Below, in pieces: positions 9,496 to 41,820 of a stretch of DNA of 64,000 nucleotides. The stretch lies in IMG/VR virus record IMGVR_UViG_3300009184_000029, positions 124,001 to 188,000 of that record. The stretch is one strand, 5' to 3'. Under the pieces are notes generated by a model. The model made no database searches, was not told where the DNA came from, and was given only the letters and a program-made list of their open reading frames with translations. This DNA comes from a virus. The number at the start of each line of letters is the position of its first letter. The stretch's first letter is position 1. Made by a program: the position numbers and the translations under genes.

Positions 9496-12276
9496 ATGAT
9501 ATCTAACGAAGAAATTGAAAATTTCCTACAAGGAAATGACGATGAAAAATACATCATCGGAGTAGAATACGATTATGTCAAAGATTGTGTTTGGAAAATA
9601 ATAGAACACCCACTTCATGGAAAACAAATTAAGAAAGATACTTTTATCCCATTTGCATGGGTTGGTGACTTACGTGGGTTAAACTTCTATCAATCATCAA
9701 AAGCATTACAGAAAGAAGCGATGACAAAACATAAGATTGTCATTGAAAAATTACGTACAGACGGAAATGAAAGATTGGAGAAAGGTTTGACATTTATGGT
9801 TAAATCCCTAAATGGTTATCGTTCTTTAATACAATTCTTTAGAGATGGTGGTGTTGACCCATGGGGTGAAAGAACTAAAGGATTAATCCTTATCCTACCT
9901 CCTGTTGAACAATTTTTGGTTACAAAAGAAAAACGACTATTTAAAGGATTTGATGATTACAATAGTATCACAAGGTTTGTATTTGACTTGGAGACGACCG
10001 CATTAGAACCAAAGGATGGTCGTATCTTTATGATAGGGATAAAAACCAATAAAGGTTTTAGTCAGGTAATTGAGTGTTCAACTGAAGAACAAGAAAGAGA
10101 CGGTATTATCAAATTTTTTAATACTATAGATGAACTTAAACCAAGTATCATTGCATCTTACAACGGATTTAACTTTGACTGGTTTTGGATATTTGAAAGG
10201 GCAAAATCATTAGGATTAGACATTAAGAAAGTGGCTAAAACTCTTAATCCAATTAACCCAATCAAACAATCTGAAAGTATGTTAAAACTTGCAAACGAGG
10301 TTGAGAGATTTAATCAGACATCTATGTGGGGGTATAATGTTGTGGACACATTACACGCAGTTAGAAGAGCCCAAGCAATTAATTCGTCTATCAAGTCTGC
10401 GGGTTTGAAGTATATTACCCAATATATTAAGGCAGAAGCCGCTGACCGTGTTTATATTGACCACACAGATATTGGTCCGTTTTATGCGAAAAAAGAAGAG
10501 TATTGGTTAAATATCCAAAACGGAAAATATAAGAAAGTGGGAGTTGACCCCACAATTGACGAAGCGTGTTCTAAACATTCAAATGTTTATATTAAAACAA
10601 CGGGTGATAATTTGGTTGAACGATATCTTGACGATGACTTGGAGGAAACTCTAACAGTTGATGAAGAATTCAATCAGGGGTCATTTCTACTTGCATCTTT
10701 GGTCCCAACAACATATGAAAGGGTTTCTACTATGGGAACTGCAACATTATGGGAAATCCAAATGAGAGCTTGGTCATACAAACATATGTTAGCAATTCCT
10801 AAAAAGAATGAAAAGACAGAATTTGTGGGAGGGTTATCCCGACTACTTAAAGTAGGATATTCAACAGACGTATTGAAACTTGACTTCTCGTCACTTTATC
10901 CTTCAATACAACTTGTTCATGATGTATTCCCAACTTGTGATATTACAGGAGCGATGAAGGGAATGTTAAATTACTTCCGTAATACACGTATCAAGTATAA
11001 AAACTTGGCAAAGGAATATGCAGATATTGATAAGAAACAATCAACATCTTACGATAGAAAACAATTACCGATTAAAATTTTCATCAACTCGATGTTCGGG
11101 GCACTATCAGCTCCACAGGTATATCACTGGGGTGATATGTATATGGGTGAACAGATTACTTGTACAGGTCGACAATATTTACGTCAGATGTTAAGATTTT
11201 TTATGAAACGAGGTTATACAGCATTAGTATGTGATACGGATGGTATGAACTTCTCATTACCTGAAGGTGGCGTGGATGATAGAACTTATATCGGTAAGGG
11301 TAAAAATTGGTTAGTTAAGGAAGGTAAGGAATACAAAGGATTTGATGCGGATGTTGCCGAGTTTAATGATATGTTTATGAAAGGTGCAATGGGTCTTGAT
11401 TGTGATGGGACTTGGAAGTCCTGTATGAATATTGCTCGTAAGAACTACGCAACAATGGAACATAATGGTAAGATTAAACTAACAGGTAATTCTATTAAGA
11501 GTAAAAAACTACCCCTGTATATTGAAGACTTCTTGGATAAAGGGATTAAGATGCTACTCGAAGGTAATGGACAAGATTTTGTTGAATGGTATTACGAATA
11601 CTTGGAAGTAATCTTTAACCAACAGATTCCGTTAATGAAAATTGCCCAAAGAGCAAAGGTTAAATTATCAATTGACGATTATAACAAACGTTCAAAAGAA
11701 AAAACCAAAGCGGGTAATGAAATGTCTCGTATGGCACATATGGAATTAGCAATTAGAGATGGAATTGCAGTTAGTTTAGGGGATGTAATATTCTATGTAA
11801 ATAATGGTCTTAAAGCATCACACGGGGATGTTCAGAAAGTTAACGATAAAATGAGTAAGAAAGATAAGGACGCTTACATTGCTCTACACGGAAAACCTCC
11901 TGTTTTAGGTTCAACTATCCAACTTAATTGTTACCGTCTTAACCCATCTGAATTAGAATCAAATCCTAATATGACAGGTGAATATAACATAGCCAGAGCT
12001 ATTGTGACTTTTAATAAAAGAATTGAACCGTTGTTAATTGTATTTGGTGAAGAAGTTAGAAATAATCTAATTGTTAGTGACCCTAAAGACAGAGGTTTGT
12101 TTACCAAACAACAATGTAAATTAATCAATGGTATACCGTTTGAAAATGGTGACCAAGATAGTATTGAGGATTTGTTAACTATTACAGAACAAGAAAAAGT
12201 ATATTGGGGTAAACGAGGAATCGACCCTGAATACATTTACGAATTAGCTGAAGAAGGATGGGAGGATATGGTATAA
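9496..12276 (+). CDS. 43: DNA polymerase, family B (T4 gp43-like), 926 aa
   Basis: Replicative DNA polymerase with proofreading exonuclease. In order: exonuclease motif I FDLETTAL near residue 163; exo II YNGFNFDWFWI near residue 215; polymerase motif A LDFSSLYPSIQ near 461; motif B with K-I-F-I-N-S-M-F-G-A near 525-535; motif C CDTDGMNF near 578, with both catalytic aspartates. Length matches T4 gp43 (about 900 aa). I chose the ATG at 9496 over the in-frame TTG at 9442, which would put the start inside the putative promoter. It stands alone as an early/middle gene between late structural blocks. It converges on the minus-strand gene at 12279 with only 2 bases between them. Arg codons include CGT and CGA, unlike the AGA-dominated fibre genes. 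Confidence 0.95.
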   Translation: MISNEEIENFLQGNDDEKYIIGVEYDYVKDCVWKIIEHPLHGKQIKKDTFIPFAWVGDLRGLNFYQSSKALQKEAMTKHKIVIEKLRTDGNERLEKGLTFMVKSLNGYRSLIQFFRDGGVDPWGERTKGLILILPPVEQFLVTKEKRLFKGFDDYNSITRFVFDLETTALEPKDGRIFMIGIKTNKGFSQVIECSTEEQERDGIIKFFNTIDELKPSIIASYNGFNFDWFWIFERAKSLGLDIKKVAKTLNPINPIKQSESMLKLANEVERFNQTSMWGYNVVDTLHAVRRAQAINSSIKSAGLKYITQYIKAEAADRVYIDHTDIGPFYAKKEEYWLNIQNGKYKKVGVDPTIDEACSKHSNVYIKTTGDNLVERYLDDDLEETLTVDEEFNQGSFLLASLVPTTYERVSTMGTATLWEIQMRAWSYKHMLAIPKKNEKTEFVGGLSRLLKVGYSTDVLKLDFSSLYPSIQLVHDVFPTCDITGAMKGMLNYFRNTRIKYKNLAKEYADIDKKQSTSYDRKQLPIKIFINSMFGALSAPQVYHWGDMYMGEQITCTGRQYLRQMLRFFMKRGYTALVCDTDGMNFSLPEGGVDDRTYIGKGKNWLVKEGKEYKGFDADVAEFNDMFMKGAMGLDCDGTWKSCMNIARKNYATMEHNGKIKLTGNSIKSKKLPLYIEDFLDKGIKMLLEGNGQDFVEWYYEYLEVIFNQQIPLMKIAQRAKVKLSIDDYNKRSKEKTKAGNEMSRMAHMELAIRDGIAVSLGDVIFYVNNGLKASHGDVQKVNDKMSKKDKDAYIALHGKPPVLGSTIQLNCYRLNPSELESNPNMTGEYNIARAIVTFNKRIEPLLIVFGEEVRNNLIVSDPKDRGLFTKQQCKLINGIPFENGDQDSIEDLLTITEQEKVYWGKRGIDPEYIYELAEEGWEDMV

Positions 12277-12595: not shown

Positions 12596-13717
12596 TTATA
12601 TAACGTAAATATTTCTTTGGAAAGCTCTTGTTTTCATTTGTTTTTGAAGATTTTCAGCCATTAGAGCCTCTCTTTCCAATATTTTTTCAGGTCTTAATCT
12701 TGTCAGCTTACCTTCAGCCCCTGTTAGTTCTTCAACTAATTTTAACTTTTCATCTTTACCTTCAGTACTTAAAGTTTGCCATTCTAATGTTAATTCAGAA
12801 TCAGGAGTTTTCAAACTACCACTGTACTTACCTCTAACTTTAGATAATGTTTCTTTAACTGACGCAATAAAATATTTTCTAACCCAGTTTTGAGCGGGTG
12901 AATTTAAGTCTACCCAAGAAAGTGTTTCTAAAGGTACATCAGATGGTAATTTTATAATATCGGGGTTCGCTTTTAAACAACTCGCTCTATCTTTTCCTTC
13001 GGTATCATAATACCAATACCAAACTTTACCATTCATTAAATCTGCATTTCCAAAATCAAATTTACCTCCAGGTGTTTGCATAAGATGAATTGCCTTTTTA
13101 CCATCAGGTAATGCAGTAATCCTGTAAGTTTTATCTCCGGCAATTATCCTTCTTTGTATGTTAATTTCTTGCATTCTTAACATCATATCAAATGCTGGCA
13201 TCATGAAGTATGAACCTGAATATCCCATTTGAGAATATCCCGCAGGACCACCAAAACCTCCGCCCCCTAATCCCCCAAAACTCCAAGGGTCGAATAAAAT
13301 GTTATTTTGAGATGGAGGTGTAAACCACAATAATTCATTAACTTCTCTATTTGCTGGAATCTCATAAATTTGTCTGTGCCTTTCAAGTTGGATATAGTCT
13401 TTTTTTAAAACCCAATCTCCTCCAGCTTGTAGACCGACTATTTTAGAATATGCATGAGTATATCTGTCCTCATAATCAAAACTTCTAGTTACAAATGCTC
13501 TTGCCAATGAACTAGTATCCATGTTAAGATTATATAAAGATGTCCATTGAGAATCGATTAACCAATCGTGAACAAACTGAGAATAGTCACTAATTGAAAA
13601 CTCCAATAGAGTATCCATCTGTTCGTCTTCAATTTCTATCGAACGAAGAGGTGCTCCTAAAATGTGTCTTACTTTAGTGTATAGTTGACTTCTATATGGT
13701 TCTTCAATTATTGTCAT
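12596..13717 (-). CDS. Putative neck / head-tail connector protein (gp13-like), 373 aa
   Basis: The N-terminus (residues 10-50) has the pattern V-R-H-I-L-G-A-P, I-E-I-E-D-E-Q-M, then L-L-E-F-S-I-S-D-Y, which resembles connector proteins of contractile-tailed phages (LG.P...vEltdeql...i..Ai..Y). Around 110-135 a D-Y-I-Q-L...Y-E-I-P segment also fits that family. In the middle (150-190) lies a Gly/Met-rich loop, SFGGLGGGGFGGPAGYSQMG, followed by a helix, unusual and perhaps a flexible insertion. The C-terminus is charged and helical. A TATTTAT box is 5 bases before the ATG, suggesting late expression. The gp13 assignment is from remembered family patterns and is moderate; a virion structural role is more secure. 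Confidence 0.5.
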   Translation of the reverse strand: MTIIEEPYRSQLYTKVRHILGAPLRSIEIEDEQMDTLLEFSISDYSQFVHDWLIDSQWTSLYNLNMDTSSLARAFVTRSFDYEDRYTHAYSKIVGLQAGGDWVLKKDYIQLERHRQIYEIPANREVNELLWFTPPSQNNILFDPWSFGGLGGGGFGGPAGYSQMGYSGSYFMMPAFDMMLRMQEINIQRRIIAGDKTYRITALPDGKKAIHLMQTPGGKFDFGNADLMNGKVWYWYYDTEGKDRASCLKANPDIIKLPSDVPLETLSWVDLNSPAQNWVRKYFIASVKETLSKVRGKYSGSLKTPDSELTLEWQTLSTEGKDEKLKLVEELTGAEGKLTRLRPEKILEREALMAENLQKQMKTRAFQRNIYVI

Positions 13718-13729: not shown

Positions 13730-14440
13730 TTACTCAGTTTTTTTAGTGTACGTTGTGTACAGTTCATCAACAAATTTCCAATTAATTGCGTCCCAAAAGT
13801 TTTCAATATAACTGTCTTTTTTGTTTTGATATTTTAAATAAAATGCGTGTTCCCACAAGTCTAATCCAAGTATAGGGTATCCACCTTTATCGTATATATT
13901 CATTAATGGGTTTTCTTGGTTTTGGGTTGACATAACTTTCAGTCTACCACTTTTAGTAACCACTAACCAAACCCAACCTGAACCAAATCTATTTTTAGCG
14001 ACTTTTTCAAATCTTTTTTTAAATTCTGCGTAAGTACCAAAATATTTTTTAATTTCTTTGAGAACTATTCCGTATGGTTTTTGTGGTGTTGGAGATAACA
14101 TCTTCCAAAATAGAGCGTGGTTAAATGCTCCACCCGCATTATTTTTTATAGTTGTATTATATTTTGATATTTGTTTGACAATCTCAATTAGTTCAACATC
14201 TCCATAATCTTTTTTTCTTAACGCTGAATTTAATTTTTTAACATACCCCTTATAATGTTTTTGATAATGAAACTTCATAGTTTCAGGGTCAATAAATCTT
14301 CTTATAGATGAATAAGAATATGGTAATTTATCAATACCAATAGTTCTCATTTCATTAATGAAAAATTTAGGACCAAATTCAGGATTACCTAAGTTGATTT
14401 TTTTCTCTAAAGATTCAGTTATTATGTTGAGATATTTCAT
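13730..14440 (-). CDS. sod: Fe/Mn superoxide dismutase (Mn-type signature) with possible capsid-targeting N-terminus, 236 aa
   Basis: Converts superoxide to O2 and H2O2. All four metal ligands are present: H58 (MKFHYQKH), H108 (GGAFNHALFW), D194 and H198 (GLDLWEHAFYL). Also seen are FGSGWVWLV and NQENPLM. The GG before x-x-NH, together with Q175 in the STxNQ segment, is the Mn-type arrangement (Fe-type has Gln near the second His). The enzyme core begins at LPY (residues 39-41), about 30 residues later than in E. coli SodA. The extra N-terminus begins MKYLNIITES, which resembles the T4 internal-protein targeting peptide and contains I-T-E|S, a match to the gp21 protease consensus (L/I-x-E|A/S/G). 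Start: ATG at 14440; two TTG codons upstream are unlikely. A TATTTAT box is 5 bases upstream. Packaging in the virion is inference. Confidence 0.92.
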   Translation of the reverse strand: MKYLNIITESLEKKINLGNPEFGPKFFINEMRTIGIDKLPYSYSSIRRFIDPETMKFHYQKHYKGYVKKLNSALRKKDYGDVELIEIVKQISKYNTTIKNNAGGAFNHALFWKMLSPTPQKPYGIVLKEIKKYFGTYAEFKKRFEKVAKNRFGSGWVWLVVTKSGRLKVMSTQNQENPLMNIYDKGGYPILGLDLWEHAFYLKYQNKKDSYIENFWDAINWKFVDELYTTYTKKTE

Positions 14441-14445
14441 CAACA

Positions 14446-14452
14446 ATAAATA
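14446..14452 (-). promoter_or_regulatory. Late-type TATTTAT box before sod
   Basis: On the minus strand TATTTAT ends 5 bases before the chosen ATG at 14440. Its presence suggests that sod is expressed with virion genes rather than early. Confidence 0.5.
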
Positions 14453-14453
14453 C

Positions 14454-16196
14454 TTACTTATTGTTAATTTCGTTTAATATCTGTTCGACAATATCCCCTG
14501 TATTTTCAGAATCTCCCATTACAGTTTCAATTATTTGTTTTTTCTTTGTTAAGATATCGTAAATAACACCTTCAATTGTGTTATCAAACAATGGGTAGAA
14601 TATTGATACATTATTTTTTTGACCGTATCTATAGGCCCTATCTTCGGCCTGTGAATGGTCTGAGGGTACAAAAGATAAGTCATTCATAATAACGGCTTCT
14701 GCCTCAGTCAAAGTTAATCCAACACCCGCAGCTTTAATATTACCACAGAAAACTCTGATTTTATCGTTTGTTTGGAATTTGTCTACAGCGTCTTGTCTTG
14801 CGGGTTTAGAAGTTGAACCATCTAAATAAACAGAAGATTTACCAAAATGTTCATGAATCTTTTTAATCGGTTCTGTAAAATTACTAAAAATAATTACTTT
14901 TTTACCTTGTTCAATAATGTTTTCAGCAATTTCAATAGTGTGTTCTATTTTTTCTTCAGCAATTACTTGTCTGACTTTAGTTAGTTTTGAAAATTGAATT
15001 GTTAAAGATTTTGATTCTTCAATTCTATTATTGTACCAATCATAGTATTCTCCCATTAATCCCTCATATAATCGAGACTTCAATCTCAAATAAACAGGTG
15101 TTATTATTTTATCAGGTAAATCTAATACTTCAGTTTTTAATCTCCTTAAAATTTGTCTAGAAGTTCTATCCCTTAATTCTTCTAAATTTGATGCTCCTGT
15201 TACATTCCAAACTTTTTTACTACCGACTCTGAATTGATAACCATTACAGTACCTAATCGCATACGCCATCCAATTTTGACTAACAGGACTATCAATTAAT
15301 TTTAACAAATTATAATAGTTCATAGGTCTAGAGGTCATTGGGGTTCCTGTTAATAACCATAACTTTTTAACCTGTTTACAGATATCCATTATAATTTTAG
15401 TCCTTTGTGCTTGTGGATTTGAAACATAATGTGCTTCATCAATGATTATTAAATCAAACTTAGATTTAACCAACAATGAATTTTCATTATCCTTAGGGTC
15501 ATGGAAATTTTTTAAAATATCATAGTTTGATATTATATAATCTGAATCTTCAAATTTTTTACCCTCACATATGTATATTGACCTATCAGTATAATTTCTA
15601 ATTTCTCTTTCCCAATTTAATTTTAAAGATGCGGGACATATAATAAGAATTTTTTTAGCACCACTTTCTAAAGAAGCAATTATGGTTGAGGTAGTTTTAC
15701 CTAAACCCATATCGTCGGCTAAAATAAATTTATCATTTTTTAATAATCTTTCTATCGCCTCTTTTTGATGAGACAATGGGGGTCTGTTATCGTATTTTGA
15801 ATAATCTACGTTAACTTCATTTTCTTTATGTTCCTTAATTATTGCGGCTTTCGGTATCCAAAAATCGTGGATAGTGTCACCACTAAAAATTTTACCCCAT
15901 ATATGATATGCTTTATCCTTCTCAACTAATAATTTCTCAATGTAGATTTTGTCAGGTTCTTTAATAAACGGATTGTCTTCAACAAGTTTTGTGGAAAAAT
16001 AAGAATCGATTGGGACCCATTTTTTTGCAACTTTTGGAGTTACCTCATGATAATTTATAACATAATCACATTGAGCTCTTGTAGGTATGTTTTTTTTAGA
16101 CACCTCAATTTGCTTCTTAATTTTAAGAATGTAATTATTGGAACCATTATAAGATTCTAAAATTTCGATTGCTTGTTGTTCAATACTTATTGCCAT
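14454..16196 (-). CDS. SNF2-family (SMARCAL1/HARP-like) DNA helicase/translocase, 580 aa
   Basis: Superfamily 2 ATPase with the full SNF2 motif set: DDMGLGKTT (161-169, Walker A), ICPASLKLNW (Ia, 186-195), IIIDEAHYVS (II, DEAH 253-256), LTGTPMTSRP (III, 282-291), IIFSNF (IV), GVGLTLTEAE (V, 491-500) and QAEDRAYRYGQ (VI, 516-526). The first ~135 residues are a non-helicase N-terminal domain. Family members anneal or remodel DNA at stalled forks; in T4 the branch-migrating helicase is UvsW, so this gene may do that job. No UvsW, Dda or other SF1/SF2 helicase is seen elsewhere in the window. It heads the minus-strand block and diverges from the gp14-like gene. A box one base off TATTTAT lies 6 bases before the ATG. 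Confidence 0.9.
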   Translation of the reverse strand: MAISIEQQAIEILESYNGSNNYILKIKKQIEVSKKNIPTRAQCDYVINYHEVTPKVAKKWVPIDSYFSTKLVEDNPFIKEPDKIYIEKLLVEKDKAYHIWGKIFSGDTIHDFWIPKAAIIKEHKENEVNVDYSKYDNRPPLSHQKEAIERLLKNDKFILADDMGLGKTTSTIIASLESGAKKILIICPASLKLNWEREIRNYTDRSIYICEGKKFEDSDYIISNYDILKNFHDPKDNENSLLVKSKFDLIIIDEAHYVSNPQAQRTKIIMDICKQVKKLWLLTGTPMTSRPMNYYNLLKLIDSPVSQNWMAYAIRYCNGYQFRVGSKKVWNVTGASNLEELRDRTSRQILRRLKTEVLDLPDKIITPVYLRLKSRLYEGLMGEYYDWYNNRIEESKSLTIQFSKLTKVRQVIAEEKIEHTIEIAENIIEQGKKVIIFSNFTEPIKKIHEHFGKSSVYLDGSTSKPARQDAVDKFQTNDKIRVFCGNIKAAGVGLTLTEAEAVIMNDLSFVPSDHSQAEDRAYRYGQKNNVSIFYPLFDNTIEGVIYDILTKKKQIIETVMGDSENTGDIVEQILNEINNK

Positions 16197-16249
16197 ACAT
16201 CAATAAATGATATCAATTAATAATAAATGAAAATTGGATATTTATCAAT
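16197..16249. promoter_or_regulatory. Divergent promoter region
   Basis: This 53-base gap separates divergent genes. Plus-strand TATTTAT at 16239-16245 ends 4 bases before the ATG at 16250. A minus-strand CATTTAT (16203-16209, read in reverse) ends 6 bases before the helicase ATG. The gap is otherwise almost pure A/T with no other signal. Confidence 0.5.
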
Positions 16250-16765
16250 ATGTCAAATAGAAATGTACCAATTACAAGATTAGGAAAATTTTTTAGTGAG
16301 AAAGATTATGATTTAGAAGTCCGAATGGGAGAAGAATGGCTTTTAGGTGATATGAATTTTACATTAGTTTTATACGCAATTGATAGACAAAAAACTAAAA
16401 CTGACGATGTTTACGGTGAAACTCTAAGTGATGGAATTAAATTTAAACCTCCTGTAGAATTTAAAGGACTTGTACAAGTTAATGCACCTGAAAATAAATT
16501 TTTAGGTAATTCAAAAATAAATCAGGTTGAACCAGGAAATGTTAGAATTTCGATTTATTTAAAACATTTGGAAGATTTGGAAATTGATATAAATTTTGGA
16601 GATTACATTGGTTATTATGAAACTGAAAATAAAGTTAGATACTATGTAGTTAATAATGACGGTAGAGTTACTTCAGACAATAAACACACATATGCAGGTT
16701 ATAAACCTTATTACAGAACAATATTGGCGTCACCTGTAACTGAAAATGAATTTAGAGGATTATAA
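16250..16765 (+). CDS. Putative neck/tail-completion protein (possibly gp14-like), 171 aa
   Basis: The small protein contains D-D-V-Y-G-E-T around residue 51, a feature recalling the D-x-[IV]-[YF]-G-E segment of T4-type gp14 neck proteins, followed by beta-rich sequence (VRISIYLKHLEDLEIDINFGDYIGYY) and a Tyr-rich end. It is coupled to the following gp15-like gene by a TAATG overlap. In T4, gp13, gp14 and gp15 sit together at the head-tail junction; here the gp13-like gene is on the opposite strand only about 2.5 kb away. The specific assignment is weak; virion role moderate. Confidence 0.4.
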   Translation: MSNRNVPITRLGKFFSEKDYDLEVRMGEEWLLGDMNFTLVLYAIDRQKTKTDDVYGETLSDGIKFKPPVEFKGLVQVNAPENKFLGNSKINQVEPGNVRISIYLKHLEDLEIDINFGDYIGYYETENKVRYYVVNNDGRVTSDNKHTYAGYKPYYRTILASPVTENEFRGL

Positions 16766-17805
16766 TGTCGTTACCAAAAAAAGTAGTACCTAATTTGTCA
16801 TTGGTTAATCCTAAGACTGGATTATCAAGAAGAGAAGAACTTTTGGAAAGAATCCAAGAGGGGGGTACCTTTTTACCAAAGTCAATTTTACACGAAGATT
16901 TAGATAAAGGTTTTTTAGATTTTGTTAAAAATGATTTAAAATTAGTTGTAAGTGGAAAATTAGTACCTACTGTTGATATAATCATAACAACTCAAAATTG
17001 GGCTCAATTTACACAAACTTGGAATTTTCAAAATATTGATAAGAATGCGGAACCACCATTCATAACCGTAGTTAGAAGTCCTGAGGGTAAGTATGGTAGT
17101 ACACCATCATTACAATATAGAATACCTAATTCAAGACAATTTTTTTACGCTGCGGTACCAACATGGAATGGGGATAGAAAAGGGTTAGATGTATATACCA
17201 TACCACAACCAATTCCTATTGATTTAACTTTTAGTATTAAAATAATTTGCAACAGAATGAGAGAGTTAAACTCATTTAATAAAATTATTTTAGGCAAATT
17301 TTCATCAAGACAATCTTACACAAATGTTAAAGGACATTATATACCAATAATATTAAACAGTATTAGTGACGAATCTGTAAATGATTTGGAAAAGAGAAGA
17401 TATTATTCCCAAAGTTACGATTTTACAATGATGGGATTTTTAATTGATGAGGATGAATTTGAGGTTAAACCTGCGGTTAGTAGAGCATTACAATTGATTG
17501 AAGTTGATAATTCAAAAAAATTAAAAAGACCTAAAAAGTTCCCAAAAAATCCTGATACCTTTGATTTTAATTTTAATTTTAGTTCTTCTGATGATTCTCA
17601 AACACAGACAATAGAATATACATCTACTTTAAAAAATATATCCACAAATAATGTTACCACGTATTCAGTTTATATTAATAGTATTTTCTTTGGTGATAAT
17701 GTTAGTGAAATATGGATAAATCAAGGAGACACTTTAACTATTGAAATTACTAAAACAGTTTTGGGACAAGAGTCTTCTGTTAATTTTTCAGGAACGTTAA
17801 ATTAA
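16765..17805 (+). CDS. 15: Tail sheath stabiliser / completion protein (gp15-like), 346 aa
   Basis: Residues about 140-235 show the gp15 family pattern: P-x-P-I-D-L-T-F-S-I-K-I-I-C then a helix, ...H-Y-I-P-I-I-L-N-S-I-S-D-E-S, then R-R-Y-Y-S-Q-S-Y-D-F-T-M-M-G-F-L-I-D. T4 gp15 (272 aa) caps the tail tube and sheath and joins the tail to the neck. The first ~60 residues are a helical N-terminal extension. The C-terminal ~100 residues (after a Lys/Pro-rich linker, KKLKRPKKFPKNP) form an added beta-type domain not expected in gp15. It is followed by a convergent small gene and precedes the sheath gene, consistent with tail assembly. Confidence 0.65.
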   Translation: MSLPKKVVPNLSLVNPKTGLSRREELLERIQEGGTFLPKSILHEDLDKGFLDFVKNDLKLVVSGKLVPTVDIIITTQNWAQFTQTWNFQNIDKNAEPPFITVVRSPEGKYGSTPSLQYRIPNSRQFFYAAVPTWNGDRKGLDVYTIPQPIPIDLTFSIKIICNRMRELNSFNKIILGKFSSRQSYTNVKGHYIPIILNSISDESVNDLEKRRYYSQSYDFTMMGFLIDEDEFEVKPAVSRALQLIEVDNSKKLKRPKKFPKNPDTFDFNFNFSSSDDSQTQTIEYTSTLKNISTNNVTTYSVYINSIFFGDNVSEIWINQGDTLTIEITKTVLGQESSVNFSGTLN

Positions 17806-17951
17806 CCCTCTCCATATATGTCCGAATCAAGGACACAATTTTTTCTAATTAATTTCTCAACAAACTTATTAATCTTCAAACCTTTTTTTTCACAGTATTT
17901 TTTCAACACTTTATGGGTGTCTTCTGAGATTTTTAAGTTCTTAATGTTCAT
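17802..17951 (-). CDS. Small ribbon-helix-helix-type protein, 49 aa
   Basis: The short ORF begins MNIKNLKISEDTHKVLKKYC and continues with a second helix containing K-I-N-K-F-V-E-K-L-I-R. The pattern (beta strand with alternating residues, S-E-D-T-H helix start, turn at K-K-G-L-K-I, amphipathic second helix) is that of CopG/MetJ/Arc-like DNA-binding proteins. It is convergent with, and overlaps by four bases, the gp15-like gene. It may repress phage or host promoters. Start ATG at 17951 with an AT-rich upstream region shared with the sheath promoter. No homologue could be checked; a chance ORF is possible but its composition looks like a real protein. Confidence 0.65.
   Translation of the reverse strand: MNIKNLKISEDTHKVLKKYCEKKGLKINKFVEKLIRKNCVLDSDIYGEG
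17819..17844 (+). terminator. Possible weak terminator after gp15-like gene
   Basis: TGTCC (17819-17823) pairs with GGACA (17831-17835) and is followed by CAA and a run of six T. It lies inside the minus-strand small ORF. The stem is only 5 bp, so this is tentative. Confidence 0.3.
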
Positions 17952-18038
17952 ACAATATAAGTATGAATAAAAGATATTTTTTTCATACCATATTATTTTA
18001 ATTACACTGAAAGTAAAGGTTTTTGTATTTTTTCAAAG

Positions 18039-18045
18039 TATTTAT
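18039..18045 (+). promoter_or_regulatory. Late-type TATTTAT box before tail sheath gene
   Basis: TATTTAT ends 30 bases before the sheath ATG, leaving a longer A-rich leader than most units. The rest of 17952-18075 holds AT-rich sequence with no ORF. Confidence 0.45.
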
Positions 18046-18075
18046 GCAATAAATAAAAAGAAATAAAACAATAAA

Positions 18076-21000
18076 ATGGCAGAATCTAATAAAGTTTTCG
18101 TATCTCCAGGTGTATATACATCGGAAAGAGACTTGTCGTTTGTAGCTCAAAGTGTGGGGGTTACAACATTAGGTATTGTTGGTGAAACCTTAAAAGGGCC
18201 AGCATTTGAACCTATCTTTATTACAAGTTATGATGAGTTTTCAACCTATTTTGGTGGAACTTCAGCTGAAAAATTTGTAAATACACAAATTCCTAAATAT
18301 GAATCGGCGTACATTGCTAAGTCATACTTACAACAATCAAATCAATTATTTGTAACAAGAGTACTTGGTTTATCAGGGTATGATGCAGGTCCTTCATGGT
18401 CAATTAAAACAATCGCAAATCCTGATGTTACAACTATGGGATTAAACGGTACCGGAACGTCATATTCCGTAGCGTTCTCAGGAAACACTGGTGGAACATA
18501 TAATTATGTTAGTTCATTCCCATCAATAATTGAATCTAATAGAACTGCAACATATACAACATTTGCTGGAGGTTCATCTACAATCCAAGAATCATTAAAT
18601 ACTTTAATTACAACTTTTCTTGGTAATGTATCGACATCAGCGAACACAATTTATTATTTTGGACCTGTTTCAGGCTATAGTGCATTAGCATCATCGTATA
18701 CTGCGGACACTAATGTATTTGGTGTGGATACCGAATCAACTGCAACAATAAATTACGCTTCAGGTACAAATGACTCTTGGTTCTACTCTAACTGGTCCCC
18801 AACAACAGGAAATGCTTACACGGGATATTCTTTCTATAGTGTGATTACAAATACAAGCGGAGCGACTGCAGGAACTTACACAGGTACTGTGTCAGGAAGA
18901 TACTATCAATTTAGTGGTACTGCTTATGTAGACTATAACAATTTAGTAATTGCAACTTTACGTTCAAGAGGTATTTCAACATACAGTAGTACTAATGGAC
19001 CAACTTATCAAGTTTCAGGAGTGAATAACGTATCATTAATTACGACAGGTTCTTATTCAGGTGTAAGTGAAAATCCATATCTAACATTTAAAGTTAGTGG
19101 TTCAACAATTGAAAATACAAACTTTGAATTTGAAACATCTTTAGATGATAATGATACAAGTTATATGAATAAAGTTTTTGGAAGAACTAACTTCGCAAAA
19201 GACAGAACTACAGTTCCATTATTTGTTGAGGAAATTTATCCAACTATGTTGTCATACGGTTACAATCAAGGATATATCAGAGGTATCAGTTCTAATTTAG
19301 TTAGTTTAAACAGTGCTAGAAGTGCGACTTCAACATCAATTGGTAACTATACTGAAAGATATCAAACCCCAGTTACTCCTTATTTAGTTTCTGAATTAAG
19401 AGGTAATAAAGTTTATCAGTTATTTAGATTTGTTTCAATATCTGACGGTAATGATGCTAATACAGAAATTAAAGTATCTGTTGCTAACATGTCATTTAAT
19501 AACTTAACATTTGATGTTATAGTTAGAGATTTCTATGACACAGATGCTAACCCTGTAGTATTAGAGAAATTTACGAACTGTACAATGGACCCTAATGAAA
19601 ATAGTTTTGTTGGTAAGAAAATTGGTTCTTCTGACGGGGAGTACGCAATAAATTCTAAATTTATAATGGTTGAGGTTAATCCTGAAGCACCAACAACGGC
19701 AATTCCTTGTGGTTTTGAAGGTTATAATACAAGACAATACTCAACTTACCCAACAAACTTACCTCCATTCCCAATTTTAAAAACTAAATACGATTTTCCT
19801 GGTGAAATTATCAGTAATCCTCCATTTGGTTCTACTTCAGGGGATGATGCTGTTACATCAGCAGGTGATAATGTAAGAAGAACTTATTTAGGTTTCTCTA
19901 CTAAAGTTGGTGTTGATACTGATTTCTTACAATATAAAGGTAAGATAAATCCTTCAAATCTTTGTACGGCAACTGAATACGACCAATGGGGTGTAAGAAC
20001 TCAAGGTTTCCACATGGATAGTGGAGCAACTGTAATTACTATCGGAACTTCATTTACAACTTCAGGTGACCCAGCGTTTGATTGTGGTGTGGCATCATTC
20101 CAATCAGAACCAACAACTGAATCAAATCCTTACTACAGATTATATTCTCGTAAGTTCACACTTGTATTCCAAGGAGGTTTTGATGGATGGGACATCTATA
20201 GAGAAAATAGAACAAACCAAGATAGATTTGCATTGGGTGGTTCAGGATTTTTGGCAGGAGCTTGTTCTTCTACAAGATACCCAACCGCATCAGGTAAACT
20301 ATTTAAATCAATAACTGTAGGTGACAACTCAACTGATTGGGCTAATACTGACTACTACGCATACTTATTGGGTATTAGTACTTTCTCAAACCCTGAAGCG
20401 GTTAACATTAACTTGTTTGTTACACCTGGCGTTGATTATACTAATAATAGTGGTGTTGTGGAATACGCGATTGATATGGTTGAGAATGACAGAGCGGATT
20501 CATTGTATATTACGACAACTCCTGACTTTAATTTATATCAACCATCAACAGATATCAGTAATTTAATTTACCCACAAGAAGCGGTTGATAACTTGGAAAC
20601 TACAGGATTAGATTCTAACTATACCGCAACTTACTACCCTTGGGTATTAACAAGAGATACTGTAAATAACACTCAAATTTATTTACCAGCAACCGCTGAG
20701 GTAACAAGAAACTTAGCATTAACCGACAACATTGCGTTCCCTTGGTTCGCAGCCGCGGGTTATACAAGAGGTATTGTAAATGCAGTTAAAGCTCGTAAAA
20801 AGTTAACTCAAGAAGATAGAGATACTCTTTATAAAGGAAGAATTAACCCAATCGCTACTTTCAATGATGTTGGAACTGTAATTTGGGGTAACAAAACTTT
20901 ACAAGTAAGAGAATCAGCTTTAGATAGAATTAACGTAAGAAGATTGTTATTACAAGCACGTAAATTGATTTCAGCGGTAGCTGTAAGGTTATTGTTTGAA

Positions 21001-21234
21001 CAAAATGACGATATTGTTAGACAACAATTCTTGGATTCAGTTAACCCAATCTTAGATGCAATCAGAAGAGACAGAGGTCTTTATGATTTCAGAGTTGTTG
21101 TTCAAAACACTCCTGAAGATTTGGATAGAAACCAAATGGTAGGTAAGATTTATATCAAACCAACTAAGGCTCTTGAATTCATAGATATTGAGTTCTTAAT
21201 CACTCCATCAGGAGCGTCTTTTGAAAATATCTAA
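18076..21234 (+). CDS. 18: Tail sheath protein (gp18-like), 1052 aa
   Basis: Contractile sheath subunit. The N-terminus (F-V-S-P-G-V-Y-T-S-E-R-D, then G-I-V-G-E-T-L-K-G-P-A-F-E-P near residue 33) is the classic sheath opening. The C-terminal ~150 residues carry the conserved assembly domain: L-L-Q-A-R-K-L-I, a long helix, R-D-R-G-L-Y-D-F-R-V-V, N-Q-M-V-G-K-I-Y-I-K-P and I-E-F-L-I-T-P-S-G. At 1052 aa it is much longer than T4 gp18 (659 aa); the extra length is Gly/Ser/Thr-rich sequence in the middle (about 110-700), probably surface-exposed insertions. A strong terminator follows at 21251. It contains several CGT Arg codons, consistent with high expression. Confidence 0.93.
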   Translation: MAESNKVFVSPGVYTSERDLSFVAQSVGVTTLGIVGETLKGPAFEPIFITSYDEFSTYFGGTSAEKFVNTQIPKYESAYIAKSYLQQSNQLFVTRVLGLSGYDAGPSWSIKTIANPDVTTMGLNGTGTSYSVAFSGNTGGTYNYVSSFPSIIESNRTATYTTFAGGSSTIQESLNTLITTFLGNVSTSANTIYYFGPVSGYSALASSYTADTNVFGVDTESTATINYASGTNDSWFYSNWSPTTGNAYTGYSFYSVITNTSGATAGTYTGTVSGRYYQFSGTAYVDYNNLVIATLRSRGISTYSSTNGPTYQVSGVNNVSLITTGSYSGVSENPYLTFKVSGSTIENTNFEFETSLDDNDTSYMNKVFGRTNFAKDRTTVPLFVEEIYPTMLSYGYNQGYIRGISSNLVSLNSARSATSTSIGNYTERYQTPVTPYLVSELRGNKVYQLFRFVSISDGNDANTEIKVSVANMSFNNLTFDVIVRDFYDTDANPVVLEKFTNCTMDPNENSFVGKKIGSSDGEYAINSKFIMVEVNPEAPTTAIPCGFEGYNTRQYSTYPTNLPPFPILKTKYDFPGEIISNPPFGSTSGDDAVTSAGDNVRRTYLGFSTKVGVDTDFLQYKGKINPSNLCTATEYDQWGVRTQGFHMDSGATVITIGTSFTTSGDPAFDCGVASFQSEPTTESNPYYRLYSRKFTLVFQGGFDGWDIYRENRTNQDRFALGGSGFLAGACSSTRYPTASGKLFKSITVGDNSTDWANTDYYAYLLGISTFSNPEAVNINLFVTPGVDYTNNSGVVEYAIDMVENDRADSLYITTTPDFNLYQPSTDISNLIYPQEAVDNLETTGLDSNYTATYYPWVLTRDTVNNTQIYLPATAEVTRNLALTDNIAFPWFAAAGYTRGIVNAVKARKKLTQEDRDTLYKGRINPIATFNDVGTVIWGNKTLQVRESALDRINVRRLLLQARKLISAVAVRLLFEQNDDIVRQQFLDSVNPILDAIRRDRGLYDFRVVVQNTPEDLDRNQMVGKIYIKPTKALEFIDIEFLITPSGASFENI

Positions 21235-21250
21235 AATTAACTAACTATAA

Positions 21251-21278
21251 AAAAACCCTCACGAAAGTGGGGGTTTTT
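21251..21278 (+). terminator. Rho-independent terminator after tail sheath
   Basis: A 12-bp stem (AAAAACCCTCAC / GTGGGGGTTTTT, one G-T pair) with a GAAA loop is followed by AATTTAAA. The A-tract and T-tract could make it bidirectional, but all neighbours are on the plus strand. Confidence 0.9.
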
Positions 21279-21289
21279 AATTTAAAGAA

Positions 21290-21296
21290 TATTTAT
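21290..21296 (+). promoter_or_regulatory. Late-type TATTTAT box before HAD gene
   Basis: TATTTAT ends 4 bases before the ATG at 21301, directly after the sheath terminator, so the HAD gene probably starts its own transcript. Confidence 0.5.
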
Positions 21297-21300
21297 AATT

Positions 21301-22125
21301 ATGAAATTGTATATCGTCGAAAAAATGGATGAAAAAAATACACCCGATATGGATTATTGGGCGTTTGATTGGGATGATAATATTATGATTATGCCAACTA
21401 AAATTGTTGTTAAAGACTCTAATGGTAAGGAAATTGGAATGTCAACTGAAGATTGGGCAGAATATAAAGATATTGTTGGTAAAGAAGATTTTGAATATGA
21501 AGGTCATACTATTGTAGGTTTGGCAAATAACCCTTTTAGATATTTTAGGACTGAATATGATAAAATGTTCACAATAGATGCTATGTTAGGTAAATTAGGT
21601 CCTGCTTGGGATGACTTTAAAAACGCAATAAATGGAGGTTCTATTTTTGCAATCATCACTGCTAGAGGACATTCTCCATTAAAGATAAGAAGTACCATTG
21701 AAAAAATGATTGACGGTAATTTCAGGGGTATTTCTAAAAAAGAACTTGTTAAAAATTTAAGAAAGTATAGAAGTATTGCTGGTGAAGAAGATATGCCTGA
21801 TGATAAGTTAATTGACGCTTACATGGATATGAATAGATATTATCCTGTGACTTTTGAATCGGGAAGTGTCCAATCTCCGGCGGAATTAAAAAATGAAAAA
21901 TTAAGAGAGTTTGAGGAGTATGTGAAATATATCGCTAATATTGTTCATAAACCTGCACACTTTAAAAATATGGTTTCAAATAAATTTGCACCAGTGATAC
22001 ATTTTTCAGATGACGATGAAACTAATTTAGAATATTCATATAAGAGAAACAAAGACAGACCAGATAACATTATTAATTATGTTACTACCAAAGGAGGAGT
22101 TAAAAAACCTTATGAATTAAAATAA
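21301..22125 (+). CDS. HAD-superfamily phosphatase-like protein, 274 aa
   Basis: HAD motifs are complete: motif I F-D-W-D-D-N (nucleophile D23, acid D25), motif II A-I-I-T-A-R-G (T120), a candidate motif III Lys near 128 or in the following helix, and motif IV H-F-S-D-D-D-E (237-239). The long helical cap between motifs I and II spans roughly residues 45-110. HAD enzymes usually remove phosphates from nucleotides, sugars or polynucleotide ends; the substrate here is unknown. The N-terminus MKLYIVEK slightly recalls the sod N-terminus. The position between sheath and tail tube, with its own TATTTAT box, is unusual for an enzyme and suggests late expression. Catalytic family is confident; role in tail assembly or virion is speculation. 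Confidence 0.8.
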   Translation: MKLYIVEKMDEKNTPDMDYWAFDWDDNIMIMPTKIVVKDSNGKEIGMSTEDWAEYKDIVGKEDFEYEGHTIVGLANNPFRYFRTEYDKMFTIDAMLGKLGPAWDDFKNAINGGSIFAIITARGHSPLKIRSTIEKMIDGNFRGISKKELVKNLRKYRSIAGEEDMPDDKLIDAYMDMNRYYPVTFESGSVQSPAELKNEKLREFEEYVKYIANIVHKPAHFKNMVSNKFAPVIHFSDDDETNLEYSYKRNKDRPDNIINYVTTKGGVKKPYELK

Positions 22126-22196
22126 ATAATTTGCTAGGTATATTGCAATTATCCCCAAAAAAAAACTAAAGTAAATAAAAAATCTTTTTATTGGTA

Positions 22197-22203
22197 TATT
22201 TAT
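22197..22203 (+). promoter_or_regulatory. Late-type TATTTAT box before tail tube gene
   Basis: TATTTAT here overlaps TATAAATA on the same strand (22201-22208), the T4 late-promoter consensus. It ends 31 bases before the tube ATG. The 110-base gap 22126-22234 holds no supported ORF. Confidence 0.5.
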
Positions 22204-22234
22204 AAATAAATAAAACGAAAAAAAATTAAATGAT

Positions 22235-22723
22235 ATGGCAGATTTGCTAATGAAAATGCCCGTACCTTACGAGCCAAAAAGACAGAATAGATTTATTCTA
22301 AGATTTCCGTCTTCGTTGGGTATTAACGAATGGTTCGTACAAGCAGCGTCAAGACCAACTATAACAATCGGTTCAACTCCGATTCCGTTTTTGAATACTG
22401 AAACATATGTTGCAGGAAGATTTAAGTGGAGTACTATACAAGTTACATTTATTGACCCAATCGGTCCTTCGGCGTCTCAAGCTTTGATGGAATGGGTTAG
22501 ATTACACGCTGAGTCTGTTACAGGTCGTATGGGATACGCCGCAGGTTATAAGAAAAATGTTGATTTAGAAATGTTAGACCCAACAGGAGTTGTGATTGAA
22601 AAGTGGATTTTGGAAGGTTGTTTTATAACAAACGCTGGTTTCGGGTCACTTGGTTACGCTAATGAAGGTTTGGTTAATATTCAGGTAACACTACAACCTG
22701 ATAGATGTATTTTAGTTTACTAA
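22235..22723 (+). CDS. 19: Tail tube protein (gp19-like), 162 aa
   Basis: Length and layout match T4 gp19 (163 aa). The N-terminus (P-Y-E-P-K-R-Q-N-R-F-I-L-R-F-P) and the segments F-V-Q-A-A-S-R-P, S-T-I-Q-V-T-F-I-D-P, A-L-M-E-W-V-R and G-W/K-I-L-E-G-C-F-I-T-N...V-N-I-Q-V-T-L-Q-P-D follow the myovirus tube family. It forms the inner tail tube through which DNA passes. It stands as a single gene with an upstream late box and a strong terminator, which fits the need for many copies. Confidence 0.93.
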   Translation: MADLLMKMPVPYEPKRQNRFILRFPSSLGINEWFVQAASRPTITIGSTPIPFLNTETYVAGRFKWSTIQVTFIDPIGPSASQALMEWVRLHAESVTGRMGYAAGYKKNVDLEMLDPTGVVIEKWILEGCFITNAGFGSLGYANEGLVNIQVTLQPDRCILVY

Positions 22724-22747
22724 AAAATTAATTACTATTATATTTTT

Positions 22748-22778
22748 AAAAAAGTCCTTAATGGGCTTTTTTTTGTTT
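22748..22778 (+). terminator. Rho-independent terminator after tail tube
   Basis: AAAAAAGTCC (22748-22757) pairs with GGGCTTTTTT (22763-22772), loop TTAAT, one T-G pair, followed by further T residues. Confidence 0.85.
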
Positions 22779-22817
22779 ACAAATAATTTTTTAAGTATAC
22801 TTTTTTAATAAAAAAAA

Positions 22818-23570
22818 ATGGACGCGAAACAAGCTGGACAAATGGATTTTAATTTACCACATGATGTGGTAGAGTTACCTTCAAGAGGGATTTTTTATAA
22901 ATCTAAGAAAAAATCTTTAAAGGTTGGTTATTTAACGGCAAATGATGAAAATATTTTGGCTAACGCTCGTAAAAACGGGGGACAAAATATTATCCAATCA
23001 TTATTAAGAAGTAAAATATATGAAACCGAAATTAAACCTGAAGAATTATTATCAGGTGATGTTGAGGCAATCCTTATCTTTTTAAGAAATACTTCATTTG
23101 GACCTGAATATACTTTTGAGGTTGCTGATGACGATGGTAAGAAGTTTGAAACAACTGTAACTATCGATGAATTAAATATAAGAAAACCCGAAGTGAATCC
23201 AAATGAAGACGGGACTTTTACAACGACATTACCAAAGTCAGGTTATTCTGTAAAATTAAGACCACTTACTTTTGGTGAAAATGTCGATTTAGAAAAAATG
23301 GAAGATTCATATCCGACTGGACTTGTCGCTCCGACAATAACATGGAGATTAAATAAAATGATTGTTGAGGTTAATGGAGATAGTAATATGGAGACAATTT
23401 CTTCATTTATTAATAATTTACCTATTATGGACTCTAAATATATTAGAAGTTTCATTGACATAAACGAACCAAAGTTAGACTTAGCAAGAGAAGTATTTAC
23501 CCCGTCAGGAAAAAGGAAGAAAGTATTAGTTTCCTTTGGGGTTGACTTTTTTCGGCCTTTCTTCAGCTAG
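22818..23570 (+). CDS. 26: Baseplate/tail assembly protein (gp26-like, T4_baseplate family), 250 aa
   Basis: The family pattern is clear: L-P-S-R-G-I-F-Y near residue 21, V-G-Y-L-T-A-N-D-E-N-I-L, I-I-Q-S-L-L-R-S-K-I, P-E-E-L-L-S-G-D, A-I-L-I-F-L-R-N-T-S-F-G-P-E-Y, and the C-terminal V-S-F-G-V-D-F-F. In T4-type phages the gp26 family acts in baseplate hub assembly. No cysteine zinc motif is present near the C-terminus. It lies between tail tube and tape measure genes, where many phages place a pair of tail assembly chaperones made by frameshifting. Its last codons overlap an ORF in the +1 frame (see the slippery site at 23547). In-frame termination adds only R-P-F-F-S after the conserved FF. 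Confidence 0.85.
   Translation: MDAKQAGQMDFNLPHDVVELPSRGIFYKSKKKSLKVGYLTANDENILANARKNGGQNIIQSLLRSKIYETEIKPEELLSGDVEAILIFLRNTSFGPEYTFEVADDDGKKFETTVTIDELNIRKPEVNPNEDGTFTTTLPKSGYSVKLRPLTFGENVDLEKMEDSYPTGLVAPTITWRLNKMIVEVNGDSNMETISSFINNLPIMDSKYIRSFIDINEPKLDLAREVFTPSGKRKKVLVSFGVDFFRPFFS
23547..23555 (+). other. Candidate programmed frameshift site (TTT TTT CGG)
   Basis: In the gp26 frame the codons are TTT TTT CGG. The P-site Phe tRNA can re-pair from TTT to TTC by a +1 slip, with CGG, an Arg codon uncommon in this AGA-rich genome, waiting in the A-site; a -2 slip on the six T residues gives the same frame. The +1 frame is closed by TAG at 23527-23529 and the gp26 frame by TAG at 23568-23570, so any switch must fall in this ~40-base window. 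Confidence 0.5.
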
Positions 23571-23709
23571 TCTAGAAAATCATATTTACGAGTATTATAT
23601 TTTAGCTCACTATTTACGGACATCATATTCTGACTTTATGTCTATGCCAAGTTATTTTAGGAAGACCCTAATAAGTAAGGTTATAGAAAAAAATAAAAAA
23701 ACAGATTAG
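23554..23709 (+). CDS. Frameshifted C-terminal extension of gp26-like protein (or small separate gene), 51 codons
   Basis: Open in the +1 frame from 23530 to TAG at 23707. After the slip it adds 51 residues with a helical, Tyr-rich stretch (E-Y-Y-I-L-A-H-Y-L), then S-Y-S-D-F-M-S-M-P-S-Y-F-R-K-T-L-I and a Lys-rich end. The '[SY]-x-x-[DE]...MP...R...' pattern resembles small T4-type hub-assembly (gp51-like) or tape-measure chaperone segments, from memory. It could instead start independently at TTG 23542, but no ATG precedes the conserved-looking part. The product by frameshift would be 296 aa. It ends just before the tape measure gene, the usual place of the lambda G-T type extension. Confidence 0.55.
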   Translation, partial: GLSSASLENHIYEYYILAHYLRTSYSDFMSMPSYFRKTLISKVIEKNKKTD

Positions 23710-23711
23710 GG

Positions 23712-23718
23712 TATTTAT
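23712..23718 (+). promoter_or_regulatory. Late-type TATTTAT box before tape measure gene
   Basis: TATTTAT follows directly after the stop of the frameshift ORF and ends 16 bases before the ATG at 23735. Confidence 0.45.
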
Positions 23719-23734
23719 TTTATAAAGAACTTAT

Positions 23735-37458: not shown

Positions 37459-37683
37459 ATGGACATTAAAACTGCAATTAATAATTATCTTGGTAAACAA
37501 GCAAGAATTACTGAAAAGGATAATGGTAATGGATTTAAAGAAGTTTGTGATTTAGATACTGGAGATTGTTATACAGTAAGAATGAAAGATGGTCTTATTG
37601 AAAGAGTTGACAACACATATCAAACAAACAAAAAAATAAAAGTAGAAACTAATAACGGATTTAAACAACTTCTAAATGGCTAA
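37459..37683 (+). CDS. Hypothetical protein, 74 aa
   Basis: Not recognised. The small, charged protein starts with a short helix (IKTAINNYLGKQ) followed by beta-like segments and a Cys pair (V-C-D-L-D-T-G-D-C-Y). The middle (V-C-D-L-D-T-G-D-C-Y-T-V-R-M-K-D-G-L-I-E-R) reads like a small beta-barrel. It overlaps the next gene by 8 bases, so the two are likely made together. Given the late-type box it may be a minor virion or assembly factor. Confidence 0.65.
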   Translation: MDIKTAINNYLGKQARITEKDNGNGFKEVCDLDTGDCYTVRMKDGLIERVDNTYQTNKKIKVETNNGFKQLLNG

Positions 37684-38335
37684 TAAAATATCTGAAAAAA
37701 TATTGTCTGAATTGGCAAGACACAAAAGTATTAATAATTACTTAATGGAACAACCTGTTCCACCACCGCCACCACCTCCACCCGCACCTGACGCTGGTGC
37801 TGTTCCACCACCACCTGCACCTGATGCCGCCGCACCTGCTCCTGCACCTGCACCTGCTGAAGATGCTAATAAAGTTGATGTTACTAAAGACCCAGATGTT
37901 GAAAAAATTGGTGACGAAAAAAGTAAAAAGAAAGACGATAAAGGTGATGAAGAAATTGAAGTCACAGATTTAGTTACATCTCAAAAAAATATTGAGGGGA
38001 AACAAGAAGAGTACTTTGAAAATTTATTTAAACAATTACAAGATTTAGAAAGTAGATTAACTGATATGGACTCAATCGTAAATAAATTAAACGATATTGA
38101 AGCTAAAATTGAAAAATATAGAGTTAAAAGTCCTGAAGAAAAATTGGAACTTAGAAGTATTGATTCTGCACCATTTAATCAAAAACTATCTCAATTCTTT
38201 CAAGATAAAGAAGAAGATTTAGAAGCAACAGGGAAAGAGTATATTCTAACTTCTGATGAAGTTGAGGACTTTAGTCCTGATGAAATCAGAGGAAGTTTCA
38301 CACAGGCTCCTGACCAAGAATTCAAAAAATACTAA
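37676..38335 (+). CDS. Proline-rich coiled-coil protein, 219 aa
   Basis: Not assigned to a family. Residues 1-26 form an N-terminal helix ending N-Y-L-M-E-Q, then comes a low-complexity Pro/Ala linker (about residues 28-61, with a run of eight prolines), an acidic/Lys segment, a coiled coil (about 105-150, heptads such as L-F-K-Q-L-Q-D-L-E-S-R-L and I-V-N-K-L-N-D-I-E-A-K-I) and an acidic C-terminus. The L-M-E|Q after the first helix loosely recalls prohead-protease sites, so a core or internal head protein is one possibility; a tail assembly factor is another. It is the last late gene before the replication module. Confidence 0.65.
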   Translation: MANKISEKILSELARHKSINNYLMEQPVPPPPPPPPAPDAGAVPPPPAPDAAAPAPAPAPAEDANKVDVTKDPDVEKIGDEKSKKKDDKGDEEIEVTDLVTSQKNIEGKQEEYFENLFKQLQDLESRLTDMDSIVNKLNDIEAKIEKYRVKSPEEKLELRSIDSAPFNQKLSQFFQDKEEDLEATGKEYILTSDEVEDFSPDEIRGSFTQAPDQEFKKY

Positions 38336-38342
38336 TTAGTAT

Positions 38343-38373
38343 TTGACAAAAACGGCTGACACACTTACATTTG
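38343..38373 (+). promoter_or_regulatory. Bacteroidota-type promoter before ssDNA-binding protein gene
   Basis: TTG (38343-38345, as TTGACAAAA) and a perfect TAnnTTTG box (TACATTTG, 38366-38373) are separated by 20 bases, the expected Bacteroidota -33/-7 geometry. The ATG is 27 bases further on. Confidence 0.75.
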
Positions 38374-38400
38374 TTTATTAACTATTAATTTATATATATC

Positions 38401-41328: not shown

Positions 41329-41339
41329 AAAAAACAATT

Positions 41340-41795: not shown

Positions 41796-41820
41796 TATTT
41801 AATTAAAAAAGGGATTTATT

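Follow-up and report, generated by a model that had tools for sequence, protein, structure and literature searches.

The SOD locus and its genome

The window, the whole stretch of 64,000 nucleotides that was analysed, corresponds to positions 124001-188000 of a 222,829-bp virus contig (IMGVR_UViG_3300009184_000029) from a T4-like phage. Its minus strand carries a gene for a superoxide dismutase (SOD) with an N-terminal extension, located between a gene for an SNF2-type helicase and a gene resembling those of head-tail adaptor or neck proteins (Table 1).

Table 1. Features of the sod locus, with positions counted in the window
Feature	Position	Strand	Basis
SOD precursor gene	13730..14440	-	236 aa between the ATG (14440) and the stop (13730); Pfam Sod_Fe_N/Sod_Fe_C, ligands, PDB matches
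Mn/Fe SOD domain, residues 36-229	13754..14335	-	Pfam, PDB matches, ligand alignment
Putative capsid-targeting propeptide (leader), residues 1-30	14351..14440	-	No counterpart in the PDB/cellular SODs examined
Candidate cleavage site 1, I-T-E↓S, residues 7-10	14411..14422	-	N-termini of relatives
Candidate cleavage site 2, I-N-E↓M, residues 28-31	14348..14359	-	Border of the SOD domain
TATTTAT box, 5 nt before the sod ATG	14446..14452	-	Position count; conserved upstream of sod in many relatives
Head-tail adaptor/neck-like neighbour	12596..13717	-	Weak PHROG match (phrog_211, head-tail adaptor Ad2, E=8.7e-8); synteny
SNF2-type helicase neighbour	14454..16196	-	Pfam, PHROGs, synteny

A first-pass annotation of the window had placed a complete Mn-type SOD, with the metal ligands H58, H108, D194 and H198, in this open reading frame (ORF); its position is correct, and Pfam, the PDB and alignments agree on the enzyme. 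Sod_Fe_N (PF00081) covers residues 36-116 with E=1.1e-20 and Sod_Fe_C (PF02777) covers residues 125-226 with E=8.7e-38, both above the Pfam cut-off, and the three histidines and one aspartate that bind the metal are invariant in all the aligned relatives. The top PDB matches are MnSODs or Mn/Fe SODs, in alignments that begin at residue 36. The C-terminal domain contains a glutamine, Q175, which on established knowledge and the present alignment we take to be a pointer to the Mn type, and which suggests that this is the metal preference of the phage enzyme.

No family for the phage SOD was found in PHROGs. In a tree the phage SODs are separate from the cellular ones and sit on a long branch, so the gene has probably resided in these phages for a long time; the nearest cellular relatives are SODs of Bacteroidota. 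The earlier remark that SOD genes are rare in phages is right for named isolates but not for this lineage, in which the order SNF2 helicase, SOD, neck-like gene is kept in nearly all loci and, of the 75 neck-gene loci that allowed a judgement, 74 have SOD. Here sod is a core gene of the lineage and no stray metabolic gene: a gene of a kind generally classed as auxiliary metabolic is a fixed part of this virus.

The same genome encodes a gp22-like scaffold, gp23 and a gp21-type prohead protease (Peptidase_S77, E=2.6e-26), which the first-pass annotation had proposed to look for beyond the window. The gp23 precursor reads SHLINE↓AATTADSG (the arrow marks the candidate cut) immediately ahead of the part that can be aligned to mature T4 gp23, and the putative site, S[HF]LINE↓[AS], is kept together with the protease in five related genomes. 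Judged by gp23, Microcystis phage Mel-JY01 and Flavobacterium phage immuto belong to the nearest named phages, with Rhodothermus phage RM378 as a more distant match. Because of these gp23 neighbours and of the relatives of SOD, the host is probably a freshwater member of the Bacteroidota. Outside the window, at about 87000-106000 of the contig, a long minus-strand run of genes resembles those of sugar metabolism and glycosyltransferases.

The leader of SOD and its candidate cleavage sites

In T4 the protease gp21 cuts after L/I-x-E, and N-terminal propeptides direct internal proteins (IPs) into the head; these propeptides comprise 10-19 residues (PMC9026906), and the leader of SOD comprises 30. 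Its N-terminus, MKYLNIITES, had been read correctly, and the extension of about 30 residues was rightly described as absent from cellular SODs: no comparable leader occurs on the cellular relatives examined, a few of which carry signal peptides only. A signal peptide was also considered for the phage protein and was ruled out, given that the sequence has no long hydrophobic stretch. In the AF2 model of a fused relative (L021) the leader is predicted to form a helix at residues 2-16.

Two candidate sites can be distinguished. At site 1, ITE↓S, the glutamate is found at position 9 in 34 of 41 distinct N-termini, and a similar L/I/V/M-x-E motif in 40 of them; retention of this N-terminal motif is widespread in the relatives. 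The first-pass annotation had set this site at the same distance from the methionine as in T4 MKTYQEFIAE, but the glutamate is residue 9 here and residue 10 there. At site 2, INE↓M, both the glutamate and an I/L at P3 are present in 70/70 distinct sequences, with N/T/S/L/M at P2 and M/A/I at P1', although the site adjoins the start of the conserved SOD domain and its conservation could be partly that of the domain. The consensus of this pre-domain stretch in the 70 sequences is [FIL]-[IL]-x-E-[MAI]-[KR]. Site 2 is also kept in members whose leader is shorter or longer, and it alone remains in the most divergent clades, where site 1 is weak (for example, IEALKE↓E). Its core is the same as that of LINE↓A in gp23 of the same genome, and a conserved E and I/L around a free P2 is the signature expected of gp21.

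A cut after residue 9 would release a propeptide of roughly the length known from T4 IPs, while a cut at site 2 would remove all 30 residues and leave, by alignment with PDB entries, an N-terminus of about cellular SOD length. Since site 2 is conserved with a free P2 and leaves this length, MRTIGIDK is predicted as the final N-terminus. The mature N-terminus SLEK proposed before is therefore replaced: ITE↓S does stand as a conserved site, but INE↓M is the most conserved one and fits better as the final cut.

By itself, one L/I-x-E[ASG] in a single N-terminal window is weak evidence, as such a motif turns up in about 6-7% of internal windows, and the strength of the case comes instead from conservation and from the family of leaders across the genome. 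On these grounds the extension resembles a removable capsid-targeting leader. Another view would be that SOD is an ordinary auxiliary metabolic gene whose product acts free in the cell late in infection, the extension being a neutral or stabilising tail. Phage and viral SODs are usually read in this way, as buffers of oxidative stress (PMC12542629), and the retention of all the active-site residues agrees with it; a neutral tail, however, would not keep L/I-x-E sites with a free P2, nor does it account for leaders of the same pattern on unrelated proteins, for such sites in the linkers of fused SODs or for a sod gene that adjoins the neck-like gene in nearly all relatives. This view is considered improbable.

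Leaders of the same type across the genome

In 38 of 213 protein families of the genome the motif L/I-x-E[ASG] occurs within residues 4-36; internal windows give 14.8 +/- 2.9. The tighter pattern M[KRN]x1-6[LIV][STN]E[SNTAG], which SOD (MKYLNIITES) shares with leaders such as MKYLITES and MKKVVRLTES, fits 17 of 301 N-terminal methionines and 1 of 1068 internal ones (p=7e-11). All these counts are approximate because the ORFs come from a simple caller. The excess is repeated in two other genomes, G002 and G004 (26/344 vs 1/1132 and 9/260 vs 4/878), with the reservation that the pattern had been defined with the data in view and that both genomes, checked afterwards, are relatives. The leaders of the tight pattern belong to 14 families whose bodies show no detectable similarity (14 body clusters), and the expectation that other proteins of this phage would share the peptide of SOD is thus borne out.

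The leader might also have spread as a copied DNA element, an explanation ruled out by codon usage: at identical leader residues the codons agree in 64 of 152 cases, compared with 70.5 expected. As this agreement is not above that expected from codon usage, selection is on the peptide. Phage immuto has a gp21-type protease, but no leader of the tight pattern was found in the 100 kb of it that were examined. A literature search with the leader string RLTESDL returned nothing.

A different proposal is that the leaders address their proteins to a membrane, a replication site or a host partner, L/I-x-E being part of that signal and not a place of gp21 cleavage. The predicted helix of the L021 leader and the many leader-bearing accessory proteins of unknown function would fit it. 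But L/I-x-E is the known specificity of gp21 (PMC9026906), the genome has a gene for a gp21 homologue and its gp23 shares the core site, and the motif also occurs in interdomain linkers, where a localisation signal has no need of it; little credence is given to this proposal.

Several leader-bearing or site-bearing proteins are encoded outside the window (contig positions). At 14504-24741, in a cluster of leader genes, a family of five paralogues has divergent bodies behind leaders that read MKYLITESQL or a close variant of it. The protein at 19597-20598 begins with the leader MNLQEHIRRVLREE; between its parts NESILREET occurs twice, and it looks like another cargo polyprotein. At 37618-38811 the leader MKLIITETQLKYLITEG precedes Peptidase_M23 and Glyco_hydro_19 domains, and the protein is a cell-wall hydrolase with a cargo-type leader. 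A DHH-type phosphoesterase (weak Pfam match) at 41087-42493, with the leader MRKIISES, is kept in G002 at 238046 and is possibly an injected phosphodiesterase. Finally, a 660-aa protein at 52890-54872 contains in its C-terminal half the run of sites LINE, LISE, LLNE, LISE and LICE↓G.

The TATTTAT box

The sequence TATTTAT precedes the start by 3-9 nt (mostly 4-7) in 33 of 223 ORFs, compared with 42 of 6,499 of all ATGs, and these frequencies indicate that the box is a real signal. Leader genes have it more often than others (9/18 vs 24/205, p=2e-4), and several genes of the tail region are also preceded by it. With its near-fixed spacing of 4-7 nt, it is a candidate promoter or start signal for transcripts with very short leaders. 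The first-pass annotation had called it a late-type box; its presence is confirmed, but identity with the T4 late box was rejected because the sequence reads TATTTAT in the orientation of the gene, and not TATAAATA, so the label of T4 late promoter is unjustified.

SOD fusions and separate modules

In related contigs there are 78 distinct complete SOD ORFs, of which 27 end after SOD and 51 continue, commonly into a domain resembling PD-(D/E)XK nucleases. The motif L/I-x-E[SAGNTE] is present in 48 of the 51 fusion linkers and in 7.5% of windows inside the domains that follow. Typically there are two linker sites, at +11 and +21 from the end of SOD (for example, LNE↓S and LYE↓N), and across 17 aligned fusions one glutamate column is invariant in an otherwise variable linker. 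The linker of L021 (residues 234-252) has a pLDDT below 50 in the AF2 model.

The usual second domain is modelled with a mean pLDDT of 86 and matches PD-(D/E)XK nucleases in the PDB, the best matches being I-Ssp6803I (prob 1.00, E=4e-3) and archaeal Hjc, with modest E-values. E142, D174, Q187 and K189 are invariant in A3 and provide the acidic residues and the (D/E/Q)-x-K motif. Pfam had no match in the fused C-terminal domains, and on the structural models the second domain is commonly a predicted PD-(D/E)XK nuclease. In larger forms, of 694-935 aa, SOD is preceded by a zincin-like domain (HEWxH), followed by other domains, or both.

Both types of module also exist as separate genes in the genome of the window. 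The nuclease type is located at contig 10935-12083 with a leader of its own, MRQIIKKILKEE; its kinship to the fused module rests on a profile match (E=1.7e-14), and a scan of viral sequences with the stand-alone ORF found no relatives. The zincin-like module, at contig 79386-79772 (E=3.9e-33), ends in ...GDYLFE, and the fused forms have a comparable site at that point.

It could be argued that SOD-nuclease is a single multidomain effector that remains uncut in the cytoplasm, with L/I-x-E in its linkers by chance, given a proteome rich in Lys and Glu and a motif short enough to appear by chance in about 7% of windows. The frequency of 48/51 against a background of 7.5%, the regular +11/+21 spacing, the invariant glutamate and the existence of the same modules as separate genes make this argument barely credible. 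Processed cargo is the best explanation for modules that have a leader as separate proteins and cleavage-like sites in the fusions, and the polyprotein relatives with their cleavage-like linkers strengthen the idea that SOD itself is cargo.

Proposed role of the leader-bearing SOD

The SOD, its leader, the protease gene, the conserved L/I-x-E sites, the leader family and the fusions and fissions can be read directly in the genes; from them we infer the targeting, cleavage, presence in the virion, injection and function of the enzyme. SOD is likely a processed head cargo. Its gene would encode the precursor of an active Mn-type superoxide dismutase, taken by leader residues 1-30 into the scaffold core of the prohead, where the gp21-type protease would cleave behind I/L-x-E in two places, ITE↓S and, as the last cut, INE↓M. 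The mature enzyme would stay in the head among the DNA and pass into the host together with it. Among the relatives, many would have SOD as one module of a cargo polyprotein, which the protease would cut into pieces that include predicted nuclease domains and, in some, a zincin-like domain.

This account is weakest on function. The first-pass annotation had suggested that injected SOD might blunt host oxidative defences or protect NrdB. SOD would likely remove superoxide at or soon after entry, which would protect the incoming DNA and oxygen-sensitive early enzymes; protection of the packaged DNA in sunlit water is an alternative function that also fits.

We lean, with reserve, towards a broader proposal of modular protein delivery, in which each genome would encode tens of leader-tagged cargo proteins, and SOD, nucleases and zincin-like modules would be swapped, fused into polyproteins, released inside the capsid by the prohead protease and co-injected, probably into Bacteroidota. 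If this is true, a phage delivers an antioxidant enzyme together with its genome, and the internal-protein system of T4 is extended from small inhibitors to a swappable kit of enzymes made as protease-cut polyproteins. The leader with L/I-x-E would then be a sequence rule that predicts the injected proteins of a large and mostly uncultured group of phages, and would bring the functions of many "hypothetical" proteins within reach.

Comparison with known systems

The principle of a capsid-targeting sequence (CTS) combined with gp21 is already known from T4, as is the presence of SOD in particles of giant eukaryotic viruses (PMC9405923). In the literature searched, coverage of which was partial, neither SOD as a predicted phage CTS cargo nor cargo polyproteins cut by a prohead protease were found.

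The closest parallel is given by the CTS of T4 IPI, IPII and IPIII (PMC9026906, PMC3012670), with which the present system shares a short N-terminal leader that begins with MK, a hydrophobic or aromatic position 4, L/I-x-E near residue 9-10, a gp21-type protease gene and the use of one leader type on unrelated proteins. Unlike the T4 proteins, the proposed cargo is a metalloenzyme; the glutamate is at 9, not 10, the 30-residue leader has a second and more conserved site, and in many relatives the predicted cargo is a polyprotein that contains sites internally. T4 Alt, a packaged ADP-ribosyltransferase, is like the proposed SOD in being an enzyme of the head trimmed by gp21, which also acts on its C-terminal side (PMC9026906), but it is an unrelated enzyme without fusion to other cargo. 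The head and ejection proteins of PhiKZ and SPN3US offer another likeness, as these large phages contain much internal protein that a prohead protease cuts after the E of a short motif (PMC9026906, PMC7411985), although lineage and cargo are different and the protease is only distantly related. The SOD reported among the particle proteins of giant eukaryotic viruses recalls the location proposed here, but the giant-virus SOD whose structure that work cites comes from a eukaryotic virus, is of the Cu,Zn type and is not cargo processed by a prohead protease (PMC9405923).

A SOD encoded at 2995-3720 of L150, a contig binned as Fluviicola, falls on the phage side of the tree and has a different leader, MNLKIVDILREG; no gp21 was found in that Fluviicola MAG.

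Pseudomonas phage PA5oct, which has a gp21-type protease in its genome, encodes a SOD-like protein, gp223 (L227 2435-2983; annotated as hypothetical), that keeps SOD-type ligand motifs and begins with MNDSIKKYISIAEAAS, including IAE↓A. It is 26% identical to the SOD of the window and belongs to a separate phage lineage. The record marks gp223 as detected by ESI-MS/MS, in a set that also includes soluble enzymes such as ribonucleotide reductase. Leader-like motifs are present in 12 of 67 detected PA5oct proteins and in 4 of 73 undetected ones, but because soluble replication enzymes are part of the detected set, this excess is at most suggestive as an independent test of the cargo idea.
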